Assembly: GCA_022402445.1 (NCBI GenBank)
Contig: JAKRSF010000004.1
Span: 257,876-321,875 of the forward strand
DNA length: 64,000 nucleotides
DNA from: Cyanobacteriota bacterium
GTDB lineage: Bacteria > Cyanobacteriota > Cyanobacteriia > CACIAM-69d
Reading direction: 5' to 3'
Shown: in pieces, positions 2,067-59,124 of the stretch
How the letters are laid out: every line of letters starts with the position of its first letter
How positions within the stretch are numbered: the first letter of the stretch is position 1
The notes under the pieces: generated by a model
Seen by the model: only the letters and a program-made list of their open reading frames with translations
Told to the model about the DNA's origin: nothing
Database searches by the model: none
Position numbers and translations under genes: made by a program

Positions 2067-2633
2067 ATGGTTGCCAACACCGACCCGAAGAATCGATGGA
2101 CCACGGCTGACCTGGAATTCTTTCCCGACACCGGCGATCGCTACGAAATCATCGACGGAGACCTCTACGTGACCCGCGCTCCCCATCACAAGCACCAACG
2201 CATCTTGACGCGCCTCTGTAGAGCCCTACCGCTGAAAGATTCAGACAACCGTAGCGGCGAGCCCATTCAAACACCGGGTCTGATCTTTGCTGGGGAAGAA
2301 AATGTAATCCCCGATCTGATCTGGATTAGTGATGAAAAATCCGTCACCTGCATTGATCCGTCGGGACATTTCACGGCGGCCCCTGAATTGGTGGTTGAAG
2401 CTATTTCCCAGAGTTCCCAAGATATTGCCCGCGATCGCCAAGTGAAACTCAAACTCTATTCCCGAGTTGGCGTGCGGGAATATTGGATCATCGATTGGCA
2501 ACAGCAAACCGTTGAGATCTACCGACGATCGCAGGCCCGCCTAGAATTAGTCTTCACCCTCTTTGCAGAAGACGAACTCACCTCGCCCCTCTTCGCCGAC
2601 TTTTCCCTCAAGGTGTCTGAGCTGTTTGATTAA
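2067..2633 (+). CDS. Uma2 family endonuclease-like protein (DUF820)
   Basis: The 188-residue product has the Uma2 fold signature: a start region RYEIIDGDLYVTRAPHHKHQ, then VIPDLIWIS (acidic residue of a PD-(D/E)XK core), ELVVEAISQSS, and D..VKLKLYSRVGVREYWIID. Uma2 proteins are very numerous in cyanobacteria and are predicted nucleases of unknown physiological role. A TATAAT hexamer at 2016-2021 could be its -10 element, suggesting transcription separate from xisHI. A second Uma2 gene lies at 58543-59124. Confidence 0.9.
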   Translation: MVANTDPKNRWTTADLEFFPDTGDRYEIIDGDLYVTRAPHHKHQRILTRLCRALPLKDSDNRSGEPIQTPGLIFAGEENVIPDLIWISDEKSVTCIDPSGHFTAAPELVVEAISQSSQDIARDRQVKLKLYSRVGVREYWIIDWQQQTVEIYRRSQARLELVFTLFAEDELTSPLFADFSLKVSELFD

Positions 2634-8873: not shown

Positions 8874-8953
8874 GCCAACCCCCCGGAGCCCTTCCCTATA
8901 CAATGGAAAGTAGCGGAGACGCATGTTTCCGTTCACTCCTCACACCACTTTTT

Positions 8954-8982
8954 CGCCTGGGCTACGGCTCGGGCGTTTTTTT
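8954..8982 (+). terminator. Rho-independent terminator of guaB3
   Basis: An 8-bp stem (8955-8962 with 8967-8974, two G-U pairs) is closed by a UACG tetraloop, extended by an outer C-G pair, and followed by seven T at 8976-8982. It lies 80 bases past the guaB3 stop. The rest of the 304-base guaB3-trxA gap holds the trxA promoter described separately and no gene. Confidence 0.8.
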
Positions 8983-54212: not shown

Positions 54213-54457
54213 TCAGGGGTTGGTGAGGTCGTTGAGCGATCGCCCCAAATACAGTTCTAAAAAGTCGCGGGCGGCGTCAGGATTGAGGACCATCAGGGCA
54301 TCAACGATCTTGGGGATCGCATCGCCGGTCGGATCGCGTGTTTCGTGGAACCAGTTGCCAACGGTGCCGCGCGATATGCCCATGGTGACGGCTAGGCGGT
54401 TTTGCGGGATGCGGTGACGGATGAGGAGGTTCTGAGGGCGTTGCCTGCTTTTCCCAT
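54213..54457 (-). pseudogene. Frameshifted copy of the small HTH gene
   Basis: ATG 54457 opens MGKAGNALR and then runs to a TAG. Shifting frame by one base after codon 9 restores NLLIRHRIPQNRLAVTMGIS, then a full-length HTH protein to the TGA at 54213-54215 (ending LYLGRSLNDLTNP). Aligned to the intact neighbour at 54464-54709, exactly one base is missing at the Arg9 codon. The two genes are tandem, 6 bases apart. Confidence 0.8.
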
Positions 54458-54463
54458 GGCCGT

Positions 54464-54709
54464 CTAGAGGTTATTGAGTTCTTCGAGCGATCGCCCGAGG
54501 TAAAGCTCGACAAAATCACGGGCGGCGGCAGGATTAATCGCTATCAGGGCATCGACGATCCTGGGAATCGCTTCAGCCGCAGGATCACGGGATTCCGAAA
54601 ACCAATGATTAACCGTTGAGCGGTTAACTTCCATCACGACAGCAAGGCGATTTTGCGAAATGCCGTGGTTTTGGAGCACGTAGCGGAGCGAGTGACCAGC
54701 TTTTCCCAT
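54464..54709 (-). CDS. Small helix-turn-helix regulator
   Basis: 81 codons from ATG 54709, starting MGKAGHSLRYVLQNHGISQN. The Xre-like helix-turn-helix is RLAVVMEVNRSTVNHWFSES, followed by PRIVDALIAINPAAARDFVELYLG. I associate this short MGKAG...LYLG family with cyanobacteria. It is divergent from the small gene and restriction-modification gene, an arrangement reminiscent of C (controller) proteins. Control of that locus is inference only. An extended frame upstream to 54787 is less likely. Confidence 0.8.
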   Translation of the reverse strand: MGKAGHSLRYVLQNHGISQNRLAVVMEVNRSTVNHWFSESRDPAAEAIPRIVDALIAINPAAARDFVELYLGRSLEELNNL

Positions 54710-54834
54710 CGCCCCATCGTCCCAAAGCTGCATATCGGCGTAAAGATTTGCGATCGGAAACAGTGCAATGCTTCCAATTGGAATCATCTCAGCCTAAGAT
54801 CGTGCTTGCAATTGGAACCATTAAGGGCACGGTT

Positions 54835-55086
54835 ATGGACGATTCGAGGATAGAAGCGCCTGTTGATCGCGATTTGCTGACGGAAGTGAGTCGGTTGGAT
54901 AGTCGCTATAACCGGTTGGTGTTGGTGGGCGAGGTGGCTTGGGTGGAGGGGATTATGAAATTGCTGCACCGGCTGCGGGTGGGGGAGATTGGCCTGTGGA
55001 GTCCGCCGGTGGCGACGGGGCGACCGGGGCAGGTGTTGCGGATTTTGGCGCGGCCCCTTTCGCGCGATCGCCCTTGCGATAATTGA
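54835..55086 (+). CDS. Small protein of unknown function upstream of the restriction-modification gene
   Basis: 83 residues from ATG 54835 (MDDSRIEAPVDRDLLTEVSR). It has VSRLDSRYNRLVLVGEVAWV, EGIMKLLHRLRVGEIGLWSP and a basic tail. It looks like a small soluble alpha/beta protein with no recognised motif. It ends 28 bases before the restriction-modification start and is probably in the same operon. Confidence 0.6.
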   Translation: MDDSRIEAPVDRDLLTEVSRLDSRYNRLVLVGEVAWVEGIMKLLHRLRVGEIGLWSPPVATGRPGQVLRILARPLSRDRPCDN

Positions 55087-55114
55087 TGGATCTGACCGGC
55101 TGGGGGAGATGGGT

Positions 55115-58100
55115 ATGGATGCGATCGCGACGGCTATAGCGAATTATTTGAAGGCGCTGCACGCGAACCGGGCGACGGGGGCCACGGTGGCGGAAACGAC
55201 CCACTATCCGGCGCTGCAAACGCTGCTGGATGCGATCGGGGCGGATCTGAAACCGGCGGTGCGCTGCATTGTGGGCCTGAGTAATCAGGGGGCGGGGATG
55301 CCGGATGGGGGGCTGTTTGTGGCGTCGCAGTTCGCGAAGGGGGAGGCGCTGCCGCAAAATCCTGCCCAGCCGGAGCGGGGGGTGATCGAGGCGAAGGGGG
55401 TGGGGGCGGATGTGCGGAAGGTGGCGCGATCGGAGCAGGTCAAAAAGTATTGGCTGACCTATCGCCAGGTGCTGGTGACGAGTTTCCGGGAGTTTCTGTT
55501 GGTGGGGGAGGTGGACGATCGCCAGACGGTTTTGGAGTCGTTTAGTTTTGCGCCGACGGTGGATGCGTTTTGGCAGTTGGCGGCGAATCCGCGATCGCTC
55601 CCGAAGGAAACGGCTGAACAGTTTGTTGAGTTTATTAAACGGGTGATGCTTTCGCGGGCCAAGATCGCGACGCCGGAGCAGGTGGCGTGGTTTTTGGCGT
55701 CCTATGCGCGGGATGCGCGATCGCGGATTGAGGCGGCGGAGGTGGATGGGCCGTTGCCGATCTTGATCAAGATTCGGGAAAGTTTTGAGGCGGGTTTGGG
55801 GATTCAGTTTGACCGCGATCGCGGCGATCGCTTTTTCCGCTCGACGTTGGTGCAGACGTTGTTCTATGGCATTTTTTCGGCGTGGGTAATCTGGCATCGA
55901 GAGCGGGATGGGCGACCGAGCGATTTTTCTTGGGACATATCCTGGCGATATTTACAGGTGCCCGTGCTGCAATCGCTATTTCACAAATTAAGTGATCCAA
56001 TAATTCTTGAAACCCTAGATCTTGTTGAGCTGTTTGATCGGACGGCTAGTGTTTTAAATCGGGTGGTGCGCTCCGAGTTTTTTAGTCAGTTTGAGGATTC
56101 TAAGGCGGTTCAATATTTCTATGAGCCTTTTCTAGAGGCGTTTGATCCAGTCCTACGGAAAGAGTTTGGGGTATGGTACACGCCGCCGGAAGTGGTGCGC
56201 TACATGGTGGAACGGGTTGATCGTGTTTTGCGCGAGGAACTCGGTTGCAAAGATGGGCTAGCAAATCCCGATGTTTATGTGCTTGATCCCTGCTGTGGAA
56301 CGGGGGCTTATTTGGTGGCGGTCATCGAGAAAATTGCTGAGACTTTGGCCCTTAAAACAGATGATGGGGCCATAGGTTCCCTGGAGGGAATGACGGATGA
56401 GAAACAAAGCTTAAAGGAGATTGTATTAAATCGGATTTTTGGTTTTGAGCTGTTAACGGCACCTTTCACAATTGCCCATTTACAAATTGCGCTGAAGTTG
56501 AATGAGTTTGGTGATCCCCTATCGCTGCATCGTCAGGGACGGGAGCGTGTGAGCATTTTTCTAACCAATGCGCTGACGGGCTGGGTGCAGTCGGTAGATG
56601 TAGAGCAACGCAGTTTAGAGTTTATGACTGCGTTCGAGCAGGAACGGGATGCGGCAGATAAAATCAAGCAGAAACAGCCAATTCTTGTCGTTATAGGAAA
56701 TCCGCCCTACAACAGTTTTGCGGGAATTGCTGTTGATGAGGAGCGAGAGCTGTCGGAAGCCTACCGAACGGTTCAGAAGGTTGCAAAACCCCAGGGGCAG
56801 GGGCTCAATGATTTGTATGTGCGCTTCTTTCGGATGGCGGAGCGGCGAATTGTTGAACAGACTCAGCGCGGAATTGTTTGTTTCATTTCCAATTATTCCT
56901 GGCTGGATGGACTGTCGTTTACGGGAATGCGAGAGCGCTATCTCAATTCATTTGATCGAATCTACATCGACAATCTCAACGGCGATAAGTACGCAACGGG
57001 CAAGATGACGCCGGATGGTCAGCCGGATCCAAGTGTGTTTTCAACGGACTGGAATCGAGAAGGAATTCAGGTGGGAACTGCGGTTGCTTTACTGTTAAAG
57101 AAGCGAGAACAGGAAGATTCAAAGCGTAAATTTGCGGAGATTCTTTACCGAGACTTTTGGGGAAAGTCGAAACTGAAAGACTTAGAATGTGAAGTAAAAC
57201 CTTCACGAGTCAGAAAATATTTAAGAATCAAGCCAAGTCTCAATTTAGGTTTGCCATTCAAATCAAAATCTGTTACAGCAAATTATTTTGACTGGCCCTT
57301 GCTCGTTGAAATTTTTCCTTTGTCTTTCCCCGGAGTTAAAACGAGCAGAGATGATGGACTGATAGACATCGATAGAGCAAACCTAGTGGAGAGAATTAGC
57401 AAGTATTTCTCAGAAGAGATCAGCGATCAGGAAATGTTGGCAATGTCTCCAACTTTGATGAATGACGCATCTCGTTTCAATGCAAGAGAAACGCGCAATT
57501 TTCTAAAAAGCAGAGGTGTAATTGAAGAGAACTTTATTTTGTATTGCTATCGACCTTTTGATCTTCGCTTCTTGTATTGGGAGCCAGAAACAAAGCTCCT
57601 AGACGAGAAAAGGAAAGAATATCGTGAATTAATTTGCCCCGAAAACATATGGATTTGCGCTGCGCAAAAACATCGTCGTTCTTTTGATCCCCCAATCATT
57701 TCACGAAATATTTCATCCTTGCATGTAATTGAAAGAGGAGCAAATATATTTCCCTTGAAAAGGAAGCCAATCACAGAAGGAAAGATATTTGGTGACAAAG
57801 AATTAACTTGGAATATTTCTCTAAAAACAAAAGAATACTGCTCTTTAGAAAAGATTGAAGATCTCTTCTTTCATGTTGCATCTGTGCTTTATGCCGTTAA
57901 GTACAGAACTGAAAATAGTGATGTATTGAAGCAAGATTGGCCGCGTATTCCATTGCCTAATGATCGCGCCCTGCTGCAACAATCTGCCGAACTCGGGCAA
58001 CGCATCGCCCATCTTCTCGACCCCGAAACCCCCATCCCCGGCATCACTAGCGGCACCGTCGAACCCCCATACCGCGCGATCGCCATCCCCACCACCACCC

Positions 58101-58531
58101 ACGGCAACACCATCAAAGGCGACGACCTAATCCTCAGCGCCAACTGGGGCAACGGCGGCAACGGCAAACCCGTCATGCCCGGAAAAGGCAAAGCCATCAA
58201 CCGTCCCTATACCTCCCAAGAACAGGAACTCATGGGCGACAACGCGATCGCCCTTCTCGGCAGCACCACCTACGACATTCACCTCAACGAAACAACCTAT
58301 TGGAAGAACATCCCCGAGCGCGTTTGGAAATACACCATTGGCGGCTATCAAGTCCTCAAAAAATGGCTGAGTTATCGGGATCAAAAAGTCCTAGGACGCC
58401 CCCTAAAACCCGCCGAAGTACGCCACCTACTCGACACCGCCCGCCGCATCAGCGCCATCATTTTGCTCGAACCCGACCTCGACGCCAACTACGAAGCCAT
58501 CAAACAAAATCCCTACCCCTGGCCCAAATAG
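55115..58531 (+). CDS. Single-chain restriction-modification enzyme (nuclease-methyltransferase-specificity, Type IIG with Type ISP C-terminus)
   Basis: 1138 residues from ATG 55115, chosen for a GGGGGAG site 6 bases upstream; an ATG two codons earlier is possible. Residues 1-110 have a PD-(D/E)XK-like nuclease (AETTHYPAL, PD at 63-64, IEAKG with E92 and K94). A helical linker follows. The N6-adenine methyltransferase has DPCCGTGAYL (D391) and GNPPYNSF (N529-Y532). The C-terminus has the Type ISP specificity signature WKYTIGGYQVLKKWLSYRD. No helicase is present, so it is Type IIG-like. The 3' half before 57960 is AT-rich and HIP1-free. Confidence 0.9.
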   Translation: MDAIATAIANYLKALHANRATGATVAETTHYPALQTLLDAIGADLKPAVRCIVGLSNQGAGMPDGGLFVASQFAKGEALPQNPAQPERGVIEAKGVGADVRKVARSEQVKKYWLTYRQVLVTSFREFLLVGEVDDRQTVLESFSFAPTVDAFWQLAANPRSLPKETAEQFVEFIKRVMLSRAKIATPEQVAWFLASYARDARSRIEAAEVDGPLPILIKIRESFEAGLGIQFDRDRGDRFFRSTLVQTLFYGIFSAWVIWHRERDGRPSDFSWDISWRYLQVPVLQSLFHKLSDPIILETLDLVELFDRTASVLNRVVRSEFFSQFEDSKAVQYFYEPFLEAFDPVLRKEFGVWYTPPEVVRYMVERVDRVLREELGCKDGLANPDVYVLDPCCGTGAYLVAVIEKIAETLALKTDDGAIGSLEGMTDEKQSLKEIVLNRIFGFELLTAPFTIAHLQIALKLNEFGDPLSLHRQGRERVSIFLTNALTGWVQSVDVEQRSLEFMTAFEQERDAADKIKQKQPILVVIGNPPYNSFAGIAVDEERELSEAYRTVQKVAKPQGQGLNDLYVRFFRMAERRIVEQTQRGIVCFISNYSWLDGLSFTGMRERYLNSFDRIYIDNLNGDKYATGKMTPDGQPDPSVFSTDWNREGIQVGTAVALLLKKREQEDSKRKFAEILYRDFWGKSKLKDLECEVKPSRVRKYLRIKPSLNLGLPFKSKSVTANYFDWPLLVEIFPLSFPGVKTSRDDGLIDIDRANLVERISKYFSEEISDQEMLAMSPTLMNDASRFNARETRNFLKSRGVIEENFILYCYRPFDLRFLYWEPETKLLDEKRKEYRELICPENIWICAAQKHRRSFDPPIISRNISSLHVIERGANIFPLKRKPITEGKIFGDKELTWNISLKTKEYCSLEKIEDLFFHVASVLYAVKYRTENSDVLKQDWPRIPLPNDRALLQQSAELGQRIAHLLDPETPIPGITSGTVEPPYRAIAIPTTTHGNTIKGDDLILSANWGNGGNGKPVMPGKGKAINRPYTSQEQELMGDNAIALLGSTTYDIHLNETTYWKNIPERVWKYTIGGYQVLKKWLSYRDQKVLGRPLKPAEVRHLLDTARRISAIILLEPDLDANYEAIKQNPYPWPK

Positions 58532-58542
58532 GTCATGCAAAA

Positions 58543-59124
58543 ATGCAAACCGCCAAGCTAACCCTCGCCCCCTGGACCGTCGAAGACTATCACCGGATGA
58601 TCGCCGCAGGCATCCTAGACGATCGCGCCGTCGAACTAATTGAAGGGCAAATCTACGCCATGGTCCCCGAAGGTCCAGAACACGCCTACAGCGAACAAAC
58701 CCTCGCCGATCGCTTCCGTCAACTGCTACGCGATCGCGCCTGCATCCGCGAAGACAAACCCATCACCCTCGCCAACACCGACTCCGAACCCGAGCCCGAC
58801 ATCGCGATCGCGCGCGGCACCCCCCTCGACTACGCCTACCGCCACCCTAGCGCCGCCGACCTGCTCCTGATCGTTGAAATCGCCAACACCACCCTGCGAA
58901 CCGACCTAACCCGAAAACGCGACCTCTACGCCCGCGCAGGCATCCCCGAATATTGGGTCGTGGATCTACAAAGCCGCCGCCTCGAAATCTTCCGCAACCC
59001 CGACGGCACCACCTACCGCGATCGCCAAACCATCACCAGCGAAACCGATCGCACAATCGCCCCCCTCGCCTTCCCCGATACCGCGATCGCCCTCGCCGAC
59101 ATCCTGCCGCCGCCCCTTCCGTAA
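58543..59124 (+). CDS. Uma2 family endonuclease-like protein
   Basis: 193 residues from ATG 58543, 11 bases after the restriction-modification gene. It has LTLAPWTVEDYHRMIAAGIL, EPDIAIARG, the acidic VEIANTTLRTDLTRKRDLYA and GIPEYWVVDLQSRRLEIFRN, a complete Uma2 core. It is probably co-transcribed with the upstream enzyme. Whether it takes part in restriction is unknown. Confidence 0.9.
   Translation: MQTAKLTLAPWTVEDYHRMIAAGILDDRAVELIEGQIYAMVPEGPEHAYSEQTLADRFRQLLRDRACIREDKPITLANTDSEPEPDIAIARGTPLDYAYRHPSAADLLLIVEIANTTLRTDLTRKRDLYARAGIPEYWVVDLQSRRLEIFRNPDGTTYRDRQTITSETDRTIAPLAFPDTAIALADILPPPLP

Follow-up and report, generated by a model that had tools for sequence, protein, structure and literature searches.

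Two or three probably independent modules around a divergent HTH/small-protein gene pair and a Type IIG/IIL-like enzyme in a cyanobacterial genome

Analysis of the window (the whole 64,000-nucleotide stretch of cyanobacterial DNA studied here) suggests that the HTH gene, the gene for an 83-residue protein, the nuclease-methylase gene and the Uma2 gene described below are two or three independent modules lying end to end, not one four-gene system. We assign a probability of roughly 0.7 to this reading. The conserved unit of the locus, as judged from sequence comparison, is the HTH gene together with the 83-residue gene, while the enzyme appears complete alone, its catalytic motifs being invariant in its homologues. 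The locus had been proposed earlier, in a sequence-only reading, as a compact restriction island built around a divergent promoter. All four genes were recovered by open reading frame and domain searches (Table 1), and the tight spacing and a promoter region organized beyond chance were also borne out; what did not hold is that the four genes form one conserved system.

Table 1. Features of the locus (window positions).
Feature	Position or length	Strand	Details
Second tandem HTH copy	54213..54457	-	frameshifted near codon 10, decayed; 58% identical to intact copy
Cro/C1-type HTH gene	54464..54709	-	81 aa, MGKAGHSLRYVLQNHG...; HTH_3 E 2.5e-6
Putative operator 1	54770..54785	.	GCTTCCAATTGGAATC, dyad TTCCAATTGGAA
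Putative -10-like box	54795..54800	+	TAAGAT, between the putative operators
Putative operator 2	54804..54819	.	GCTTGCAATTGGAACC
Small gene	54835..55086	+	83 aa, unnamed cyanobacterial small-protein family
Small-gene-to-enzyme gap	28 bp	+	
Restriction-modification enzyme, Type IIG/IIL-like	55115..58531	+	1138 aa; RBS GGGGGAG
N-terminal nuclease region	55115..55804	+	PD-(D/E)XK motif P63 D64 ... E92 x K94
Type_ISP_C target-recognition region (TRD)	57305..58393	+	residues 731-1093, E 3.9e-43
Enzyme-to-Uma2 gap	11 bp	+	
Uma2-family gene	58543..59124	+	193 aa; PF05685 E 8.8e-38

The enzyme, the Uma2 gene and their neighbourhoods

The enzyme reads as a full-length and fairly ordinary Type IIG/IIL-like fusion, with nuclease, methylase and TRD all within one chain. 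Its Pfam matches are N6_Mtase/Eco57I and Type_ISP_C, its best PADLOC model is REase_MTase_IIG (E 9.7e-97) and, among proteins of solved structure, it is closest to 7lo5 (E 1.8e-32; profile 1.2e-48), followed by LlaGI and LlaBIII. Its similarity to both 7lo5 and LlaGI starts near residue 317, ahead of the methylase. Across the full-length homologues aligned, P63-D64 and E92-x-K94 of the nuclease, which is assigned at the motif level, are invariant, as are DPCCGTG (391–397) and NPPY (529–532) of the methylase. An AlphaFold model of the enzyme built with four sequences was poor (pLDDT 39.6).

Enzymes of the Type IIG/IIL group (DrdV, with PDB entries 7lo5/7lvv; MmeI; BpuSI) have the same architecture, namely a single chain with an N-terminal nuclease, a gamma N6-adenine methylase and a C-terminal TRD, and no helicase. 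Identity of the window enzyme to 7lo5 is low and the nuclease domains align by motif only. With Type ISP enzymes it shares the methylase-TRD unit (residues ~317–987) and the Type_ISP_C tail, but these carry a helicase-like ATPase between nuclease and methylase, for which the window enzyme gave no match in Pfam and PADLOC searches. Type ISP has been described as resembling Type IIL apart from this inserted ATPase, which is essential to Type ISP cleavage (PMC4872093). The window enzyme, in which no helicase was matched, therefore belongs to Type IIG/IIL and not to a new kind. The domain reading made from sequence alone was thus sound, whereas the ISP-like tail without a helicase, which it had pointed out, is normal for Type IIG/IIL (PMC4872093).

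Cyanobacteria and alphaproteobacteria both have relatives of the enzyme, with identities of up to 53%, and the full-length ones (40–53% identical) are annotated as stand-alone restriction-modification (R-M) enzymes. A search of plasmid records gave 29 relatives with a coverage of 80% or more, and most among the matches listed are annotated as type ISP R-M. The 'Type ISP' enzymes of Rhizobium, Sphingomonas and Azospirillum plasmids are full-length homologues (40–47% identical) which are found singly or with other neighbours, but never with the HTH/small pair; the Borreliella lp25 enzyme is a weaker relative (24.5% identity) and is likewise single-chain. The GC content falls to 0.38–0.42 at 57000–58000, over the TRD region, whereas the sequence farther away on either side has about 0.6. 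The specificity segment may have been exchanged, and low GC over the TRD would then be expected.

None of 14 enzyme-homologue loci, with flanks of about 1.5–3.5 kb, carries the HTH gene, the small gene or Uma2. In two of the three closest cyanobacterial homologues (genomes G094 and G005) these three genes are found on other contigs only, and in the third (G115) the sole Uma2 gene of the contig lies 44 kb away from the enzyme. The closest HTH/small pairs, those of genomes G002 and G004, occur without the enzyme. The refuting condition named in the sequence-only reading itself thus counts against a four-gene system. HTH and small gene, on the other hand, are strongly co-conserved, and this half of the proposal has gained support. 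If the four genes formed a restriction system of their own, with the small protein and Uma2 as new accessories, this would fit the compact layout with its 28- and 11-bp gaps and the divergent regulated promoter, but since the enzyme co-occurs with the other three genes in no homologue locus examined and is complete by itself, we regard such a system as very improbable. Against the reading as separate modules it may be said that small gene, enzyme and Uma2 lie so near one another, which could mean that joint expression was selected for.

Uma2 is represented by at least 8 matches in the source genome and by 5–14 in each of 8 genomes, and the family (COG4636/PF05685), which is abundant in cyanobacteria, is regarded in earlier work as specific to them and as probably acting solo (PMC2701414). 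The window gene is an ordinary member; no difference from the family was found. Another open reading frame with weak Uma2 similarity is present at window positions 2067–2633 (G000:C7:260020–260415). Among the nearest-neighbour proteins of HTH/small pairs, 7 of 89 are Uma2 proteins, seemingly above the abundance of the family, and the proximity of Uma2 to the pair may not be accidental.

The genes bestrophin and DUF2605, which flank the locus in the window, are located on separate contigs in the relatives used for an empty-site comparison, so that no insertion boundary can be drawn. A Yfr1 small RNA at window positions 8913–8977 (49.8 bits) supports the cyanobacterial origin of the DNA.

The HTH/small pair and its divergent promoter

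The open reading frame of the HTH gene reaches 54787. However, alignment of the family, in which the protein start MG[KR]AG or similar is conserved, sets the start at the ATG at 54709 (MGKAGHSLRY...). With this start, both putative operators fall in a true intergenic space of 125 bp (54710–54834). The pair of operators in the window was equalled by 1 of 1000 shuffles (P about 0.001), and the layout of the divergent promoter goes beyond chance. A sigma-70 promoter scan of the divergent region returned no passing hit, and the TAAGAT box was missed by the consensus scan. The HTH/small intergenic spaces as a group contain a short sequence in duplicate, often with dyad symmetry and usually with ~30–40 bp between the copies; the sequence varies by locus and the layout is constant. 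The best 16-mer pair beats dinucleotide shuffles at the 0.05 level in 38 of 49 such regions, where about 2.5 would be expected.

A whole-genome search for further exact operator sites found none beyond the two in the window. We rejected a wider regulon of the window HTH protein on this ground, and the restriction of the exact pattern to these two sites suggests that the protein controls only this promoter.

Upstream of the HTH start codon, the leader (60 bases) is itself conserved at ~60 loci, with the form TTTAC-N13-CTCTGACANNAT..GGGGC-ATG (for example L058:6687–6732). An imperfect hairpin in the leader abuts the start codon (pairing 225/300 against 206 in shuffles, with 0 of 1000 as high). 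It may serve translational control or be a DNA site. In the sister genomes G002 and G004, which carry the pairs nearest to the window gene in the HTH tree, two intact tandem HTH copies are present with the small gene divergent from them.

The small family has the core pattern IGs..V..tI..LH...fAE...WSp..PTgnPGEVmsiL.R. Pfam, NCBIfam, PHROG and PDB searches gave no match to the family, and the window protein had none in PADLOC either. Its AlphaFold model (pLDDT 74, pTM 0.55) has a beta-alpha-beta core of moderate confidence, for which the PDB gave no significant fold match (best E 1.1). In the searches made here the family is confined to cyanobacteria, plasmids included. In viral contigs neither a small-family relative nor one of the enzyme was confirmed, and a phage origin of the pair was rejected on this ground.

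The 81 HTH loci inspected fall into three groups: in 37 the small gene lies next to the HTH gene and divergent from it, in 43 no small gene was detected and in one it lies elsewhere. Where both genes are present, the small gene is therefore adjacent and divergent in 37 of 38 loci. An independent set of 80 small genes from named cyanobacterial genomes gave the same geometry, the HTH gene being immediately upstream and divergent in all 11 cases in which it is nearby. The remaining 69 small genes lack an HTH gene of the window family, in a sample biased towards copies without HTH, as the search pattern came from a narrower alignment, the full diverse set being too variable. Genomes G008 and G032 have many small genes and zero HTH matches, and the source genome carries further HTH/small pairs at G000:C13 and G000:C6. 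At about half of the HTH loci a small gene was not detected, so the two genes do not form an obligate pair.

Several other arrangements of the small family were observed. At 17 loci among L116–L195, members lie behind a different, same-strand HTH-like gene (for example L166:2501–2926). On Trichormus variabilis plasmid D (L115) they are near parG and a replication gene, and in Nodosilinea (L139:362–1510) one is near a ParM/StbA-looking gene which has no Pfam match. In G049 and G032 (L089–L093, L099–L102), several copies are located near contig ends, as if beside repeats.

Links to DNA-modification clusters and a possible mechanism

Members of the HTH family are also found with Dnd and HNH_2 genes. 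Across 116 genomes, 12 of 56 HNH_2 genes adjoin an HTH gene of the window family, against an expectation of 0.02. The arrangement is dndB-HTH-HTH|small-HNH-dndC at L128 and L129 and dndC-HTH|small-dndD-dndE at L159. HTH members lie in or beside Dnd and HNH_2 genes at L065, L128, L129, L159, L200, L219, L231 and L235, and likewise at L237, L239, L241–L245 and L247. At many of these loci the HTH and nuclease genes converge and their stop codons overlap. Open reading frames of ~110 aa matching the C-terminal part of DndC alone (L219:5307–5654, L237:5691–5978 and L241:2848–3189) sit directly behind the small gene or beside the HTH gene in Dnd clusters. That dnd genes are enriched and unusually arranged in Nostocales had been noted in a 2021 survey (PMC8569181); neither the HTH nor the small gene is mentioned in the searched passages of this survey or of a 2024 reappraisal (PMC10853773).

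Dnd or HNH genes accompany 10 of 49 HTH/small pairs and 6 of the 43 loci that have the HTH gene alone, and most neighbours are unrelated. As judged from PADLOC neighbour content, the defence genes near HTH loci are similar whether or not the small gene is present, so that the Dnd/HNH link is one of the HTH family and not specifically of the pair. On the HTH tree, built from a short alignment with many forks unresolved, the Dnd/HNH context has to be gained or lost independently at least 6 times. The subclade with the window gene (23 rows) has zero Dnd members, and a search of 14 kb of the window around the locus matched no Dnd homologue. The Dnd and HNH_2 clusters of cyanobacteria carry the same HTH family, and sometimes the small gene, but their modification chemistry and enzymes are unrelated to those of the window.

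Based on the twin operators and the conserved layout, we suggest that the first module (54464–55086) would be an autoregulated pair of a Cro/C1-type repressor and a divergent partner of ~80 residues. A dimer of the repressor most likely binds the two locus-specific operators flanking the promoter and, once bound, would silence both directions; the small protein most likely works with or against its repressor. The second module (55115–58531) would be a solitary Type IIG/IIL-like enzyme which, by homology, would methylate adenine in an asymmetric site and cut unmethylated DNA at a fixed distance without an ATP motor. The third would be the Uma2 gene, one of many. Given the 28- and 11-bp gaps, transcription of the small gene, the enzyme and Uma2 probably starts at one promoter here, that of the small gene. 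Gene spacing makes it conceivable, at slightly less than even odds, that the repressor sets the level of the enzyme in this strain.

Like the C proteins of R-M systems and phage Cro/CI, the window HTH is a small HTH protein beside its own operator pair and is likely to repress itself. It differs from them in being divergent from a conserved small protein and in its locus-specific operators, and unlike the C proteins its family lies mostly away from R-M genes. An operator pair at its own promoter, as in C proteins, was found, while conservation of the HTH gene with R-M genes was seen at 0 of the 14 loci. The name controller, given to it in the sequence-only reading, is fair as a tentative one, in view of the link of the family to DNA-modification clusters elsewhere.

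The pair might be a cassette by which cyanobacteria regulate DNA-modification and restriction operons in particular, serving much as the C proteins do in R-M systems, with the window as a Type IIG instance. The excess of HNH_2 genes beside the family (12/56 against 0.02), the Dnd layouts containing the pair at L128, L129 and L159, the repeated changes of Dnd context on the tree and the start of the enzyme 28 bp downstream of the small gene all point this way. However, Dnd or HNH genes are found at only 10/49 pairs and 6/43 HTH-only loci, the subclade of the window gene is without a Dnd member and relatives of the enzyme manage without the pair, and we consider such a specialisation possible but rather doubtful. 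Slightly more tentative still is the proposal that a hitherto undescribed cyanobacterial cassette, made up of a Cro/C1-type repressor with twin operators and a divergent partner which relieves or tunes repression, has been repeatedly recruited to control operons of DNA-marking defence, several times in Dnd-HNH clusters elsewhere and here with a Type IIG enzyme. Much less probable is a type II toxin-antitoxin pair with the HTH protein as antitoxin and the small protein as toxin. Two small genes with an autoregulated promoter are features that such a pair could have, as are numerous paralogues within one genome, plasmid copies next to parG and rep genes and a patchy distribution. But the genes are divergent and not co-transcribed, where a toxin-antitoxin pair would be an obligate one-operon pairing, and solo small genes are many: 69/80 in the one, HTH-poor sample have no such HTH gene, and G008 and G032 have many and no HTH match. 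The small protein also has no toxin-like motif or fold match. The reading as separate modules, with the HTH/small pair as the conserved one, is the one we prefer.

The enzyme by itself adds one more Type IIG specificity, and the greater interest lies in the HTH/small pair. Cyanobacteria carry this unnamed pair widely and in several copies per genome, its operator code can be read, and its HTH family is strongly linked to phosphorothioation and HNH-nuclease clusters. The pair would offer a handle on a small-protein family that is nameless in the databases searched, as well as a testable handle on how cyanobacteria control DNA-modification systems that are toxic to themselves.
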